This document shows positions 5,358-58,402 of a stretch of DNA of 64,000 nucleotides, one piece after another. Every line of letters begins with the position of its first letter. The first letter of the stretch is position 1. A program made the translations under genes and the position numbers. The notes beneath the pieces are model-generated. The model did not search any database. It was not told the origin of the DNA and worked only from the letters and a program-made list of their open reading frames with translations. This DNA comes from Candidatus Sulfotelmatobacter sp. (lineage in GTDB: Bacteria; Acidobacteriota; Terriglobia; Terriglobales; Acidobacteriaceae), in assembly GCA_030041215.1 (NCBI GenBank), contig JASHOH010000186.1, positions 1 to 64,000 of the forward strand. Reading direction: 5' to 3'.

Positions 5358-5387
5358 CAGCAAAATTTATGGCAAAGCAAAACTCAT

Positions 5388-5430
5388 GTGGGGACAGCCG
5401 CTCTCGGCTGTCCGCCGAGCGAAGCTCGGC
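5388..5430 (+). repeat. Two-hairpin palindromic repeat, copy A
   Basis: Two hairpins follow each other: 5392-5413 (9 bp stem ggacagccg/cggctgtcc, 4-base loop) and 5414-5430 (7 bp stem gccgagc/gctcggc, loop gaa). The same architecture occurs at 33933-33985 and 49879-49918 in the opposite orientation. Here it lies between the convergent HD gene and hutH, ending one base before the hutH stop, so it could also work as a bidirectional terminator. Confidence 0.75.
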
Positions 5431-5431
5431 T

Positions 5432-32837: not shown

Positions 32838-34073
32838 CTACGGAACCGGCGCTTCAGCCCTGGTCCTTGTTTCCCGCTCGCTCACAAAATCAAGAATGAT
32901 CTCCGCCGCGCGATCTGCCGGATGCTTTGGAGTCGGGCCTTCGATTGCCCCCACCGGAACCCGCAACAGTTCTTTGACACGCCGTAGTCCCGCGATCATC
33001 CGTTCGCGAACCGGCCCATCGGGGAGAATTTTATTTATCTCGTCAGCTACATTTTTAGCGGTGAAATCCTGCTGCACCAGCTCAGGCACGATTTTTTCGC
33101 CCGCAATCAAATTGACCATGGCGAAATGCGGAACTTTGATGCGTGGTCTACCCAACAAGTAAGTGAGCGGCGAGACGCGGTAAACCATGACGAAGGGAGT
33201 CTCCATCATGGCCGCCTCCACCGTCGCCGTCCCGCTGGCAATGATGCCGGCTCGAGAATGCCGAAGGGCTGGCGATGATTCGGGAACGAGTGTTACGGCG
33301 GTGCCCGCTGTTCCTAAGAAATCTCGCAAGAAATCTCGCTCGATTGTGGGTGCGACTGGAAGCAGGAACGCGTATTCGTTTCCTAAGCCGGCGGTCGTTT
33401 CCAGAATCGTCGGCAAGTTCATCCGCACCTCTTTTACCCGGCTGCCGGGCATGAGCGTAATCCAAGGCTTCTCTGTGCTCAGCTGAAACTGCGCGGCGTA
33501 ATCCCCGCGCTCGATGGTCGACAGCGGCAACTCCGCCAACGGGTGCCCCACAAACGTGGCGTCGACCCCGCGATCGCGATAGAACTTTTCTTCGAAAGGA
33601 AAAATGACGAGCGCTTTATCAACGAAATCCCTAATCAGCTTTACGCGCCCCTGCCGCCACGCCCAGAACTGCGGCGCAACATAGTAAATGACGGGAACTC
33701 CGCGCTTCTTCATCTCCCGTGCCACACGCCAGTTGAATGCGGGCGAGTCGATCACGACGGCAAGATCGGGCTTGCGTCTATCAGCTTCATCAATCAGCAT
33801 GTGAAACAGCCGGTAAATTTTCGGAAGATGGCCGAGAATTTCCGTGATTCCGACGACAGACAGATCTTTTGCGTCGACGACGATGTCCGCACCCGCCGCC
33901 CGCATGCGTTCGCCGCCGACACCGAAGAATTGGAGCCGACTCTTCGAGTCGGCCGGACAGCCGAGGGCGGCTGTCCCCACATGAGATATGGCAGCCGCGC
34001 GCCGCAGCGCCTCCATCAACTGCGCGCCGTACATTTCGCCGGAGGCTTCGCCAGCGGAGATCAGAATTTTCAC
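32838..34073 (-). CDS. lpxB: Lipid-A-disaccharide synthase with an in-frame repeat insertion
   Basis: LpxB joins UDP-2,3-diacylglucosamine and lipid X in lipid A synthesis. The 411-residue protein has MKILISAGEASGEMYGAQL, FFGVGGERMRAAG, VIDSPAFNWRVA, YYVAPQFWAW, VGHPLAEL, MPGSRVKEV and MVYRVSPLTYLLGR, all in family order. Residues about 30-47 (HVGTAALGCPADSKSR) do not belong to the family: normally about six residues separate the first helix from FFGVGG. They are encoded by a two-hairpin repeat. The start is a GTG at 34073. The rest of the enzyme appears intact, so the insertion is probably tolerated on a surface loop. Confidence 0.92.
   Translation of the reverse strand: MKILISAGEASGEMYGAQLMEALRRAAAISHVGTAALGCPADSKSRLQFFGVGGERMRAAGADIVVDAKDLSVVGITEILGHLPKIYRLFHMLIDEADRRKPDLAVVIDSPAFNWRVAREMKKRGVPVIYYVAPQFWAWRQGRVKLIRDFVDKALVIFPFEEKFYRDRGVDATFVGHPLAELPLSTIERGDYAAQFQLSTEKPWITLMPGSRVKEVRMNLPTILETTAGLGNEYAFLLPVAPTIERDFLRDFLGTAGTAVTLVPESSPALRHSRAGIIASGTATVEAAMMETPFVMVYRVSPLTYLLGRPRIKVPHFAMVNLIAGEKIVPELVQQDFTAKNVADEINKILPDGPVRERMIAGLRRVKELLRVPVGAIEGPTPKHPADRAAEIILDFVSERETRTRAEAPVP
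33933..33985 (-). repeat. Two-hairpin repeat, copy B, inside lpxB
   Basis: Hairpins at 33936-33952 (stem ccgactc/gagtcgg, loop ttc) and 33955-33976 (stem ggacagccg/cggctgtcc, loop aggg) match copies at 5388-5430 and 49879-49918. The region is 53-54 bases long, so it keeps the lpxB frame. It has no stop codon in that frame. Confidence 0.8.
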
Positions 34074-34143
34074 GAAGCAATTGTAAGGGACACGCTGCAA
34101 CGCGGCATTGCGGCCAGCGTTACGCCGGTGCAGCGGAAGCCTC

Positions 34144-36639
34144 TCAGTGCTGAAGCTGCGCTCTCTCGGCCAGGAAGTTATCGCCGCATTGTTTGGCGGT
34201 GGCGAGAAGTTCGTTGTATTGCGGCGCGCTTCGCAACTCGGCTAGCAACGGGTCTTTCTGAAGTGCCGTGTAAGCGCAATATTTCCCCTCGACGGCGCTT
34301 TTGAGCACTCGCAACGCCGCTTCTTTCTCGCCGCAGAACGCCAGGTCAGTGGCGAAAAGATACCGGTTCTCCGGGTCAGGATTGGCCAAGAATCCGGGCA
34401 AGATGTCGCGGACAGTTTGCTCCAGTTCTGCCGAGGGTGGCGTGGAAGGCGAGTGGTCGGCGCACGCTTGCAAGAACCTGTCGGCTTTCTGCTGTACCGC
34501 CAACTTGCGGGCGGCTTCCCGAGCCTCCGCCAGCTTGCCCTCGCGCCAATAGATTCGGATCACGTTAGCGTTGAACCACTCCGAGCCTTCGTCGGCGCGC
34601 AAAAAATCCATGGCGCGCTCCGCGTTCCCAAGCTCAATAAACGTGAACATGCACTGGCGCATGGTATAGAGCGCTGGATCGAGGCGGCGCACAGCCTCGC
34701 ATTCGTTGGCCGATTCTTCGAGCAACCCGGCATAACGCAGAACGTAAGCCAATCCGATGTGTGCCGTGGCATCCTCGGGTCGCTGCCGGACAATCTCTGC
34801 GGCGTCTTTATAAGCCTGCGCGTACTCGCCCCGTTCCGTGCGGTTGGCGACGAGTTGGGATACCGCCAGCGTGAGATTCGGGTCAAGCACGATGGCGCGC
34901 TCTAGCGCGGCCGTTGATTTCTGGAACATCGCCTCGCCGCCATCCGAATACTGCGAATCGAGATAGTAGCGGCGTCCGAGCGCGCCCCAGGCGGGCGCGT
35001 AGTTGGCGTCCAGGCCGACGGCGCGCTCCAGCATCCGAATGCCGTCTTTGTTGGGCGCAGCATCGTGCGGTAGGGCAAGGCTGCGCAGGTAAAGATCGTA
35101 AGCCTCTTCGTTCTTTGGACGCGTTCCGCTCTCGCCGGATTCAGTCCCCGCGCCCAGTGCCGGAACCAATCCCTGGCGGACCTTCGCATCGATCTGGCTG
35201 CGCATGGCAATCATGTCGGGAGCGGCAGCGGTCAGGGTGTCGCGCCACAGCGTGCGGTTGTTGGCCACGTCTACAGCTTCGAGCGTGATCTGCAGATGAT
35301 CGCCTTCCTTCAAATAATGCCCGGTCACGACGTCGCTGACATGCATTTCATTTCCTGCCTGTTGTACGTCAACGCCCGGACCAACGTATTTGCTGGTAGT
35401 GGCAAACGGACGAATCGACAGCGAGTGCACGTAGCTGAGCGCGGTGGCAACCTCATCGGGCAGGGCGAGGCGCAGAAAATCGCTGCCCTTGTCGGAACCG
35501 AGGTTTTGAAAGGGCAGCACCGCCACCGTTGCTGGATTCGTGGACGTTGCCGCGGTGGTACCGGCATGTTGCCTCGATTGCCAGAAGTAAACCGCCAGCG
35601 CGATGACGGCTATCGCGGCAATGGCGATGCCGGCGATTTTGAGGTAAGGCTTGCGCGGCTGATCTGCGATCGCGCTGCTGCTAGAGACGCGATGCGCGGC
35701 GGAACTTGCCGGTCCGGCCACTGGGCTGGACTGCTGGCCCTCGGCGGCGACGGGAGATAACGTTCGACCCGTGTCGGTATCCCTCTTCAGCCTCTGCAAA
35801 TCGCTGCGCATCTCCGATGCGTGCTGGTAGCGCAGGTTGCGGTCTTTCTCCAGTGCCTTGTTGATGATGTCTTCCAGCCGCGCCGGTATGCCGCGATTCA
35901 ACCGCATGGCAGGAACAGGCGTGCGGTTCATGATCGCCTCGCAGATCACCGCCGAGCTCTCGCCATGAAACGGCACATCTCCGGTCGCCATCTCGTAAAG
36001 CACTGCACCAAATGAAAACAGATCGGTGCGCGCGTCCAGTTCGCGAGCCCGCACCTGCTCGGGCGACATATAGGCGACGGTGCCAATCATCGTTCCGGGG
36101 CTGGTCAGGTGGGCTTCGTCTAAAGTTTGTGCGTTGCCGGCCTGAGTCGCGCCAACAGAACTCCCGGAAGCGCCAACTTTCGCCAACCCGAAATCAAGGA
36201 TTTTTCCGTGACCGCGTTTAGTGAGAAAAATGTTTGCTGGCTTGATGTCGCGATGCACAATTCCCTCGGCGTGCGCTGCATCGAGCGCGTCGGCGATCTC
36301 AATCGCCATTGTCAGCAACGTGTCTGTGTCGAGAGGCCGCCCAGCGATGGCGTGTTTCAGGGTCACGCCATCGAGGAACTCCATGGCGATAAAGGCTTGC
36401 CCTTCATGCTCGTCGATTTCGTAAATAGTGCAAATATTAGGATGATTTAATGCCGATGCTGCTTGCGCCTCACGCTGGAATCGCGCCAGCGCCTGCGGAT
36501 CCTTGGCCACTGCATCTGGCAGAAATTTCAGGGCGACGAAGCGGTGCAGCTTGACGTCCTCGGCCTTGTAAACGACCCCCATGCCGCCGCCACAGAGTTT
36601 TTCGATGATTCGGTAATGCGAGATGGTCTGTCCGAGCAT
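34144..36639 (-). CDS. Ser/Thr protein kinase with C-terminal TPR sensor region
   Basis: This 831-residue protein has a Hanks-type kinase (about 5-275) with [22 protein letters not shown] and SPEQVR. The first glycine of the nucleotide loop is replaced ([10 protein letters not shown]), which may weaken ATP binding. A membrane helix ([17 protein letters not shown]) is near 335-355. Then comes a region starting [11 protein letters not shown] like the periplasmic part of adenylate-cyclase/FlgO-type sensors, followed by about eight TPR units. The start at ATG 36639 places the kinase at the very N-terminus. It lies 70 bases downstream of the lpxB start region on the same strand. Confidence 0.87.
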
Positions 36640-43520: not shown

Positions 43521-43637
43521 AAATCCCTCCTTATGAATGCCTATTTGTGATGCTACAGCGGGGGCAAAGATGCGGCAAGGGAGCTGCGAGTCGCGAGCCG
43601 TGAGCTCTTTGCCGTGAACCAAACCATGTCGCATGAC

Positions 43638-43785
43638 GGCGTCATCCTGAAGGCCCGCGTTTTCAGGTAGACCCTCGGCTTCGGCCGAGGGCGGCGAAGC
43701 CGCATGGCGAGGAGCCTGCCAATCCCTGGTAAAGCCGGCGTCATCCCGAAGCCCCGCGTTTTCACCAGTGGGGCGAGGGATCTCC
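43638..43785. repeat. Two copies of the ggcgtcatyccgaag repeat
   Basis: ggcgtcatcctgaaggcccg starts at 43638, and a longer copy (ggcgtcatcccgaagccccg, then ccagtggggcgagggatctc) runs from 43737 to 43785. The longer one matches 58231-58279 at about 45 of 49 positions. Between them is a hairpin of ccctcggcttcggccgaggg. The 576-base region 43521-44096 contains only such repeats and AT-richer spacer; I see no gene. Confidence 0.65.
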
Positions 43786-49878: not shown

Positions 49879-49918
49879 GCGGAGCTTCGCTCCGCAGGAT
49901 AGCCGAGGGCGGCTGTCC
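49879..49918 (-). repeat. Two-hairpin repeat, copy C
   Basis: Hairpins at 49879-49895 (stem gcggagc/gctccgc, loop ttc) and 49897-49918 (stem ggatagccg/cggctgtcc, loop aggg, one mismatch) match copies at 5388 and 33933. It lies between rseP and a small secreted-protein gene, 18 bases before its ATG. Confidence 0.75.
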
Positions 49919-49935
49919 CTACACGACCCGTTGCG

Positions 49936-52589: not shown

Positions 52590-55187
52590 CTATCGCACGC
52601 CTTCCACCAGGAACAGGTCCGACAGTTCACGCAAGAATGAGTAAGCGTACGACTTCCCGTCAGGCGTCATGCGGACGTTCAATATCGCCGTGACTCCCGC
52701 AAGGTCGCTGGGGGCAAGCGTCTTTATTAGCTCCCTCTTGCCTGTATTGAGATCGAGCTGGTATAGCGCCGCTGAGGTCTTCTCGTCGTGATAGACGTAA
52801 GCCGAGCGCCCGTCTGCGGACCACGAAATCCAAATGTCTTCCGCTGACCAGCCGGGAATGGCTCGCGATTGGCCTCCCGCTATCGCGTAGAGTCCACCTT
52901 GGCCGTTCACATCGCGCGCAAATATCACCTTGCCGTCCGGCGATAAGAGATGGGTTTCAACATGATTCTGTTTCAAAGAAATTGGGGGTGTGATGCTGTG
53001 TGGCTCTCCACCGGCGATGTCCTGCGTATACATTCGCCAGCCATGGCCATCCGCTGCCGCGAAATAAATCGCTTTCCCATCAGGCATCCATCCCGTTGAT
53101 CCGATTCCCTGCAGGGACGCGAAGCTTATCCTTTGGACTTCTCCCACTCCGGTAGGCACGAACCCCATCATTTTTACACCGATTTGCGAGGAGTCAAAAG
53201 CAACCACCCGAGTCCCCTCCGGGGAGAGAATAGGATTCGACCATGTACCCAGCTTGACGGCTGGAGATCCATCTGTCTTTCTCAGGTATGCCAGCCCTGA
53301 GGCGCCGGCCGCGGAACCCCAGTCGTCAAACGTGACCACCGTTCCGTCGGCAGAGAGGTCTCTCAAGCTTGCGTAATCAAGCCAGCTAAGGTCACGTTCT
53401 GCGCGGTCGTTTGGACCGCGGAATTGCAATCCACTTCGCCACGATTCTTTCGTCAACAAAATCCGGCCATCCTGGGAAACATCGTGCAGCCGGACGATGC
53501 CAGGCAGACGAAGAACTACCCGCTGTTTGCCCTCGCGCCCCACCCCTAAGATGGCGTCCGCCCATCCTTGAGTCTCGGTCGCAGCTGCCCACACTTCTTC
53601 GCCTGAAGGAGCCCACGCCACACCCTCCAAACTCACGAATAACGGCGAACGAATAAATTTCTTGCCGCTGCGATCGATCGCGACCACCCAACCCGCATCA
53701 CCATCGACTGCTATAAATTCACCGAAGGCCACCGCGATGCCCCGCGGTGCAATCCGCAGATATCCGAGCGCGTGGTCGCTCTCGTAGAGAACCTTTCCGC
53801 GGGGAAATTCAACACGGTACTTTCCCGCTACCTGCCGCAGTACCGCCATTTCACTGCCGTCGGCCGTCCAGTCGGCTGCAAGCACGTCTTCGGCGATTTC
53901 CCGTGGTGAACCTCCGGCAACGGGCACCAACCCTAAAGTTCCCTGGCAAAGGCCAATGTAGCGGTCTTTGCACCCCACCGAGATCGCCAGCTCCGAAGGA
54001 GATGCGGCGAACAAAGTCGAGTTGACCAAATTCAGCGGGCGCGATTCCGGACTGTCGGGCAGTGTGGAATAAAGCTGGACAGGCTGCCCGTTCCAGCTTG
54101 CACTGTAGTAGATTGAGCGCCCGTCTGGCGCGAAACGCGCCGCATACACCAGGCCGCGTTCGAAGGTGAGCTGGTGGTACAACGGCATCGATACCGGCGC
54201 GCCGCGACGCCCCAGCATCCAGGTCACCGTGGCGACAAGAACCAGCAGCAGCACACAGGCGGCGATAAGAACCCATTGCGGACGTTTCCTGACGCCCACC
54301 ACTGAGTGCTGTCCGCTGATGTGGCTTGACGACGAAACTCCAGAAAGCCCTTCCAGATTGAACGCCAAGTCGCGGGCCGATTGAAACCGTTGCAGCGGCT
54401 TTTTCTCTAGGCATCGTCGGATAATGCGATCCAGCGCCGGCGAGATCGGCTTGCCGGTCAGGCTTAATTCTGGCGGGTCCTCTTTCAGGATCGCCGTCAT
54501 GGTTTCAGCCGATGTATCGCGGCGGAAGGCACGTTGCCCGCAGAGCATCTCGTACAGAATTGTCCCCAGCGCAAAGATGTCGGAGCGCGCATCGGCTGGC
54601 TCTCCCCTCACCTGCTCGGGAGACATGTAGCCCACCGTGCCCATGACCGCGCCGGTGGATGTGGGCACGGCTTCGACGGTAGCGCCGTCATCCGATTCGG
54701 CCTCAGGCCGCGCGAGCTTGGCCAGTCCGAAATCGAGAATTTTCACCCGGCCGTCGCGGGTGACGAAAATATTCTCCGGTTTCAGATCGCGATGGATGAT
54801 GCCTTTGTCGTGTGCCGCCGCCAATCCTTGTGCGATTTGCGTGCCATACTCGATGGCGCGGCGCAGAGGCAGAGCGCCGCTGATCAATTCCATCCTCAAT
54901 GATTGACCTTCCAGGCATTCTGAAACCAGATACGGTGCGCCATTATGTGTGCCGATGTCGTGGATGGAAAGAATGTTGGGATGGTTCAGCGCAGCAACGG
55001 CACGCGCCTCGGTTTCGAACCGACGCAAGCGCTCAGCATCTCGCGCCATTTTTTCCGGCAAGACTTTAATAGCAACGTCGCGCCCGAGTCTGGTATCGCG
55101 AGCACGGTACACTTCACCCATGCCTCCCGCGCCGAGCGGAGCGACAATTTCGTAAGGTCCGATTTTCGTGCCGGAAGGGAGCGCCAT
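52590..55187 (-). CDS. Ser/Thr protein kinase with C-terminal PD40 propeller
   Basis: This 865-residue protein begins [19 protein letters not shown] and has a full Hanks kinase: [38 protein letters not shown] and SPEQVRGE. A membrane helix ([21 protein letters not shown]) is near 305-325. The C-terminal 500 residues hold TolB/PD40-like blades ([37 protein letters not shown]). Overall layout matches the kinase at 383. Its start is 78 bases from ispG, which is divergent. Confidence 0.9.
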
Positions 55188-58120: not shown

Positions 58121-58230
58121 CCCGAAACTCTGATTTCACCCGATTGGAATTCAACATTCTAACGGCTGGACAACAATCTGCGCCAGAGCGGCTTCATCTG
58201 GTGCGGGTTAGTTTGACCTCACACAACTGC

Positions 58231-58402
58231 GGCGTCATTCCGAAGCCCCGCGTTTTTACCAGCGGGGCGAGGAATCTCCCGCAGAAATGGCCTTTGTGCT
58301 GGGAGATCCTTCGCTGCGCCTGAGGTCCCTCGCTCTGCTCGGGATTTCGGCGCGCGGCTCGGACGCCGCGCAAACGCCTCAAGCTCCGCTCAGGATGACG
58401 CC
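58231..58402. repeat. Palindromic repeat element of about 172 bp
   Basis: The ends ggcgtcattccg (58231) and caggatgacgcc (ending 58402) are complementary at 10 of 12 positions, and the first 49 bases match 43737-43785. The interior contains several GC-rich palindromes. It lies in the 499-base gap 58121-58619, in which I see no gene. Confidence 0.6.

Follow-up and report, generated by a model that had tools for sequence, protein, structure and literature searches.

A REP-like element in frame within lpxB of Candidatus Sulfotelmatobacter and the states of its site across the genus

The lpxB gene and its expanded linker

The window, the whole 64,000-nucleotide stretch of Candidatus Sulfotelmatobacter DNA analysed here, carries a gene for lipid-A-disaccharide synthase (lpxB) with a palindromic repeat inside its coding sequence (Table 1). 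In a profile search the product scored 248.8 bits against TIGR00215, above the curated cut-off of 190.25, and a phmmer comparison matched it to E. coli LpxB (5w8n) at E 1.7e-44; the frame is intact with no stop, and the gene assignment of the initial annotation holds. The GTG at 34073 is a likelier start than the TTG. Between helix 1 and the FFGVGG motif, the linker has 24 residues as against 7 in relatives with an empty site, a net gain of 17, close to the 18 or so first estimated. The repeat-encoded peptide itself, HVGTAALGCPADSKSRL, comprises residues 40-56 counted from TTG, or 31-47 counted from the GTG. Both hairpins described at the outset are present, and the frame runs open through the whole element. 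None of 200 shuffles was as stable as the insert DNA, which folds into two hairpins, and the corresponding RNA fold has a z-score of -4.85.

Table 1. Coordinates of the lpxB gene, its in-frame repeat and the related copies within the window
Feature	Position	Strand	Remarks
lpxB, lipid-A-disaccharide synthase	32838..34100	-	ORF; TIGR00215; 420 aa from TTG, 411 aa from GTG at 34073
Expanded linker, 24 codons, RAAAISHVGTAALGCPADSKSRLQ	33930..34001	-	7 residues in empty relatives (e.g. RRDPQLE)
GTGG-tagged REP element, in-frame peptide HVGTAALGCPADSKSRL	33933..33983	-	Fold z -5.57
First hairpin (REP core), GGACAGCCG-CCCT-CGGCTGTCC on gene strand	33955..33976	.	64 genome places at <=3 mismatches
Second hairpin, GCCGACTC-GAA-GAGTCGGC on gene strand	33935..33953	.	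Fold and pattern search
Copy of the same REP family	5385..5431	+	No through-running ORF with >=15 codons on both sides
Copy of the same REP family	49879..49925	-	No through-running ORF with >=15 codons on both sides

An assembly error, which could have undone the finding, is unlikely, since a separate genome (G013, locus L032, on the contig also listed under the name L249) carries this insert at the identical position, with three base differences in 51. Comparison of the window lpxB with that of this nearest relative gave a dN/dS of 0.156 over 388 codons, which suggests, at the level of sequence, that LpxB with the insert still works. We set aside an intein or intron as explanations, as the gain is only 17 residues, a splicing domain is absent and the frame is open.

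The AlphaFold2 model of the window LpxB (from an alignment of 46 sequences) has a mean pLDDT of 90.4. The REP peptide occupies model residues 31-47, of which residues 34-47 are predicted as coil, and the pLDDT is 55 for the block 31-40 and 75 for the block 41-50. A relative with a 52-residue insert is modelled with a pLDDT below 50 at residues 38-68, in the same place. In the GT-B topology a linker of this kind, leading from a helix into a strand, sits opposite the cleft. By this topology and the low-confidence coil of the model, the insert would be the surface loop that had been proposed for it. Foldseek placed E. coli LpxB structures at the top of its matches (26% identity) with an rmsd of about 20, which we ascribe to the C-terminal swap that excerpts of PMC5785501 report for the E. 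coli LpxB dimer. Taken together, the open frame, the TIGR00215 score, the dN/dS ratio and the AlphaFold2 model support the central proposal of the initial annotation, namely that an in-frame palindromic repeat adds a loop to a seemingly working LpxB.

The repeat family, its transposases and its copies in other proteins

The core palindrome occurs at three places in the window at <=3 mismatches (5392, 33955 and 49897; shuffle mean 0.00, n=100), and the two outside lpxB are close to positions 5388 and 49879, where sister copies had been pointed out. For the 64 places in the source genome of the window (G000) the reversed control gave 0, and the 45 genomes of the genus have from 4 to 172 places each against reversed controls of 0 or 1. 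Reading the 62 G000 copies with distinct flanks, we found a tag directly before the core in 52 (GTAG in 31, GTGG in 21); the tag of the lpxB copy is GTGG. Such a tag joined to a palindrome is the mark of GTAG REPs as described in excerpts of PMC3733652. The family is dispersed, multicopy and mostly outside genes, and judged by these sequence features the lpxB element is a GTAG-class REP of about 51 nt.

A second hairpin follows the core within 7 bases in 37 of the 62 copies (shuffles: mean 2.3, largest 10) and stands on the core's other side in one; its stem shows paired changes among copies. The second-hairpin variant of lpxB, searched together with the core at <=3 mismatches, is found at one place in G000 and at seven in the 45 genomes. 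Four of the seven are in lpxB (G000, G013, G008 and G002), and three other genomes have the variant outside lpxB. On the LpxB tree, G013 and G008 are neighbours of G000. Inverted REP pairs adjoin RAYT genes and occur in lpxB of L063 and L069, whereas the copies in G000 mostly stand singly.

That these REPs are open in all six frames proved true only in part: a 53-base stretch at lpxB is open in five of six frames, and the mean number of open frames was 5.3 for GTGG copies, 4.5 for GTAG copies, 4.25 for shuffled copies and 3.99 for random pieces of the window. The window also contains other repeats (43637-43785 and 58230-58279; 36048-36118 and 54605-54675), and the copy at 36048 falls in a kinase-like ORF.

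REPs are small non-autonomous repeats of a kind thought to be mobilised by Y1 transposases (RAYTs). For the Marinomonas system, PMC8266576 reports that cleavage moves to another position when GTAG is changed to GTGG, so that GTGG copies may have a different aim. Scanning 36 Y1_Tnp loci (6 of G000, and 30 of the 41 matches in six REP-rich relatives), we found the REP on both sides of three, in G039, G004 and G020. The G020 RAYT protein had 51 matches at E<=1e-15, distributed over 26 of the 45 genus genomes, and 30 of these loci were fetched. All seven matches at least 71% identical to it (G020, G026, G001, G015, G004, G039 and G010) carry the core on both sides at <=3 mismatches, and none of the 23 more distant loci fetched does, so that the RAYT and the REP match as a pair. 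Among the more distant loci, L227 (66% identity) is bordered at both ends by a REP variant whose loop is shorter by one base, L240 (50% identity) has this shorter-loop variant on one side, and many of the 23 adjoin other GTRG hairpins. Further RAYT genes of the genus, including L084, L085, L201, L210, L228 and L230, lie beside other families of GTRG-tagged hairpins. None of the six Y1_Tnp genes in the G000 assembly is flanked by this REP; the best G000 match to the G020 RAYT is 51% identical and has a different REP beside it. As the G000 assembly lacks a RAYT bordered by this REP, its lpxB copy was probably inherited rather than newly acquired, with a second-hairpin variant common to the lpxB genes of G013, G008 and G002.

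At least 12 of the 62 G000 copies lie in frame inside recognised proteins: MutS2, RecG, MutS, RNase R, MnmG, Tgt, UbiD, a PAD_porph-family protein, a zinc dehydrogenase, a GlpC-like protein, a molybdopterin oxidoreductase and LpxB. This is a lower bound from 20 scanned candidate ORFs plus LpxB, and it excludes copies near protein ends (PDH E1 alpha, cytochrome b, a lipid kinase and two at the end of a molybdopterin protein). Nine of the 12 fall within a single matched stretch; the other three, in RNase R, Tgt and zinc dehydrogenase, separate two matched parts of the same protein. The VGTAALGCP-like translation, for which a search of other proteins had been advised, turned up in MnmG, RNase R and GlpC-like proteins.

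For RecG and MnmG, the best 30 loci each from the 45 genomes were read by eye. The RecG interval from DEQHRFG to MTATPIPR has 34 residues in 2 of the 30 loci and 42 to 64 in the other 28, with a clear REP peptide in 8. In the 28 MnmG loci read of 30 the loop is variable; 4 of them have a clear REP peptide there, and the rest are filled otherwise. Across the genus, this MnmG loop at the G000 REP site (L129-L158) is occupied by several peptides that resemble repeats but not one another, as though more than one kind of dispersed repeat made use of it. A peptide resembling SASSGQAP or STSSGQAL appears at the same loops in LpxB (L048, within the REP, and L326) and in RecG (L165), and is apparently another repeat at these sites.

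States of the lpxB site across the genus

LpxB matches were obtained in 98 of 101 genomes and in 43 of the 45 within the genus, one of them (G032) as a C-terminal piece only. The LpxB match is absent from G006 and G007, and one of these two genomes is given as 99% complete. Our genus linker set comprises 44 rows from 42 genomes, with all 44 in frame and stop-free from the GEASGE-type motif to FFGVGG and with linkers of 7 to 71 residues. By regular expressions and reading, 43 rows were assigned to states: 13 empty (7 residues), 18 with the REP in orientation A, 7 in orientation B, 4 doublets (AB) and 1 other. The window lpxB is in the B orientation. The remaining row, L065, is B-like by eye, and was kept out of trees and tables with its motif changed. 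Looser or other REP variants are present in L035, L037, L039, L049 and L071, and a B remnant in L067. Absence of the insertion from close relatives, which the initial annotation had put up for checking, is thus seen in 13 of 44 rows, but REP sequence occupies the site in 30 of 44, in both orientations and as doublets. Two genomes, G009 (L059/L074) and G042 (L065/L066), each have two lpxB pieces with different linker states, suggesting mixed strains or binning errors.

Beyond the genus, 75 linkers were read from the 80 named loci kept of 159, a set that overlaps the genus and consists of metagenome-assembled genomes labelled Candidatus Sulfotelmatobacter, Acidobacteriaceae, Terriglobia and the like. 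Of these linkers, 27 have 8 residues or fewer, 4 have 9 to 12 and 44 have more than 12, and 22 of the 75 are REP-like by regular expression. Many fillers of the lpxB site beyond the genus, like most MnmG fillers, are not REPs of this family.

Changes of state were counted on an LpxB tree of 40 genus rows, with the non-REP filler left out and L071 and L074 too short for trees. The minimum is 9 changes between empty and REP and 16 among the four states, counts that cannot separate gain from loss and that come from a tree with 18 of 43 weak forks whose bootstrap had not settled. The tree of the LpxB 3' part gave the same minima (9 and 16); without L037/L054 the empty/REP count is 8, and inclusion of non-REP fillers and outgroups raises the counts to 11 and 19. 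A single clade for all 27 REP-filled rows was rejected on a quick tree (p-AU 0.0005).

One sister pair with support of 100/100 joins a filled row, L037, with an empty one, L054. They differ at 55 of 327 sites in the 5' part and at 54 of 816 in the 3' part (0 of 1000 shuffles), and the 5' excess therefore most likely reflects replacement, by recombination in one of the two, of the 5' part together with the site. Three control pairs are also uneven (1, 0 and 0 of 500 shuffles), but in these it is the 5' part that diverges less. We had considered homogenisation as the source of the low divergence in the 5' third, and dropped this in favour of constraint as the main cause: four-fold identity in lpxB is 0.45 to 0.47 in the 5' third, 0.42 to 0.45 in several other stretches, and lower in the variable middle and at the 3' end. 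No target-site signature was seen in our reading of the lpxB insert junctions.

Origin of the insert and its significance

We consider it probable that a GTAG-class REP sits in the LpxB linker as a passenger loop, at a site turned over by REP exchange, loss and recombination. The REP would have come into the short linker that joins helix 1 of LpxB to strand 2, plausibly by RAYT-driven insertion, and only insertions that kept the frame and contained no stop would have survived. With a linker tolerant of 7 to 71 residues, the inserted peptide could be carried as a floppy loop that most likely has no job of its own. The filled site would stay active, with REPs being added, swapped between subfamilies, present in either orientation and lost, and its state could be replaced whenever the 5' part of lpxB recombines with the copy of another species.

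Part of this pattern is also what a single old insertion would leave behind. The A-type left arm with its core is found at nine places in 8 of the 45 genomes, eight of the nine in lpxB, by a pattern that passes over A rows with more than 3 changed bases in the arm; in the 12 A-type rows that share the arm, its four-fold identity is 0.53, like the 0.52 of the first 375 bases of the gene. A left arm and core that are mostly bound to lpxB and show gene-like divergence favour a single old A insertion rather than many recent ones. Furthermore, the 16 aligned A/AB rows share the core reading frame, the B rows read a VGTAA-like peptide, and doublet forms exist (L063 and L069). It is nevertheless somewhat unlikely that one REP inserted in the genus ancestor and was then only inherited vertically, decayed and deleted, with the empty sites as precise losses. 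The REP core of the same 12 rows has a four-fold identity of 0.83, above that of left arm and flank; the 16 A/AB rows, four of which (L063, L067, L069 and L074) have an unrelated left arm and are omitted from the 12-row set, give 0.80 for the core, 0.52 for the arm and 0.47 for the first 375 bases. Since the core is more alike than arm or flank at four-fold sites, the site looks old and the REP sequence young. Most empty rows are outgroup-like at the linker, 12 of the 13 having D or E at position 3 and 9 of the 13 having P at position 4; the filled rows are without these residues, and exact loss would therefore have to rebuild them. REPs with a GATGGC loop, of which 6 of the 45 genomes have 11 to 14 exact copies and the others 0 to 3, occupy lpxB in four rows from four of those six genomes, matching the resident REP set; these rows form two sister pairs, and hence two independent cases at best. 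In L037/L054, moreover, it is most likely the 5' part that was replaced. Together, the mosaic pair, the core identity and the GATGGC match favour refreshing or re-entry of the REP from the resident set, with constraint on the hairpin as the alternative.

The insert could instead have been kept because its hairpins modulate the translation or the stability of the lpxB mRNA. The strong RNA fold and a likeness of the REP core at synonymous sites that exceeds that of its flanks both speak for it, but relatives with an empty site are common (13 of 44 rows), several rows have a second hairpin that is partial or of another form, similar inserts lie deep within unrelated genes such as that for RecG, and the core likeness is equally expected if REPs are refreshed from other copies. 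We regard this explanation as improbable. A function of the loop in the protein, for example in binding the membrane or a partner at the step of lipid A synthesis, seems more improbable still. In its favour, the site is filled in 31 of 44 genus rows and the A rows vary rather little in their peptide; against this, the linker varies from 7 to 71 residues with two unrelated peptides (A and B) and non-REP fillers, and the insert is predicted as low-confidence coil. The membrane face of E. coli LpxB, as reported in excerpts of PMC5785501, consists of loop 62-71 and helix 4 and does not include the linker between helix 1 and FFGVGG.

Among described elements the insert most resembles GTAG-tagged REPs with their RAYTs (REPtrons and REPINs), with which its family shares the GTAG/GTGG tag 5' of a palindrome, dispersed copies, a REP-flanked RAYT gene and inverted REP pairs beside the RAYT. 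Unlike those systems, the family has a second, variable hairpin in the 37 copies noted above, its G000 copies are mostly single, and at least a dozen are in frame in recognised proteins. For comparison, 14 of the 1,067 REP 16-mers in P. fluorescens SBW25 overlap genes, according to excerpts of PMC3116915. In the excerpts of Di Nocera et al. 2013 (PMC3733652), GTAG REPs are described inside ORFs, many of them repair genes and some tRNA-modifying genes, and recB of two Xanthomonas species has a REP at about the same site. GTAG REPs within ORFs, and within repair and tRNA-modifying genes, are common to those excerpts and to our data; relative to them, the present case has one lipid A gene site filled in most genus rows, where the REP may face either way, be doubled, belong to one subfamily or another, or be missing. 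The initial annotation had likened the insert to the palindromic elements of Rickettsia (RPEs), which excerpts of PMC10969869 describe as being about 150 bp and in frame inside proteins. The likeness stands for behaviour, both being palindromic repeats in frame within proteins, and need not mean identity: compared by description and length, the lpxB element is only about 51 nt and belongs to a GTAG-class REP family with a matching RAYT in relatives.

Among the best matches in open-licence full text, titles and abstract starts, we recognised no description of such repeats in Acidobacteria, of palindromic inserts in lpxB or of Sulfotelmatobacter repeats. In-frame REPs were known already; what looks new is that, throughout a genus, a single codon position in a lipid A gene shows such turnover. 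More tentatively, certain linkers of essential proteins (lpxB, and likely recG and mnmG) might serve as standing landing ports for REPs, open genus-wide to their entry, exchange and loss, where a coding REP is kept young by conversion or re-insertion and selfish turnover, not protein selection, writes the region.

REPs were named as extragenic, and here REP sequence lies inside the gene of a lipid A enzyme in most species examined. The natural empty, single, flipped and double forms allow direct tests of the burden that a selfish repeat in frame places on an enzyme, of the ways in which such inserts are gained and lost, and of whether coding DNA is within the reach of RAYTs. They also carry a warning: where a housekeeping protein of an acidobacterium has an unusual loop, this may be a translated repeat rather than an adaptation.
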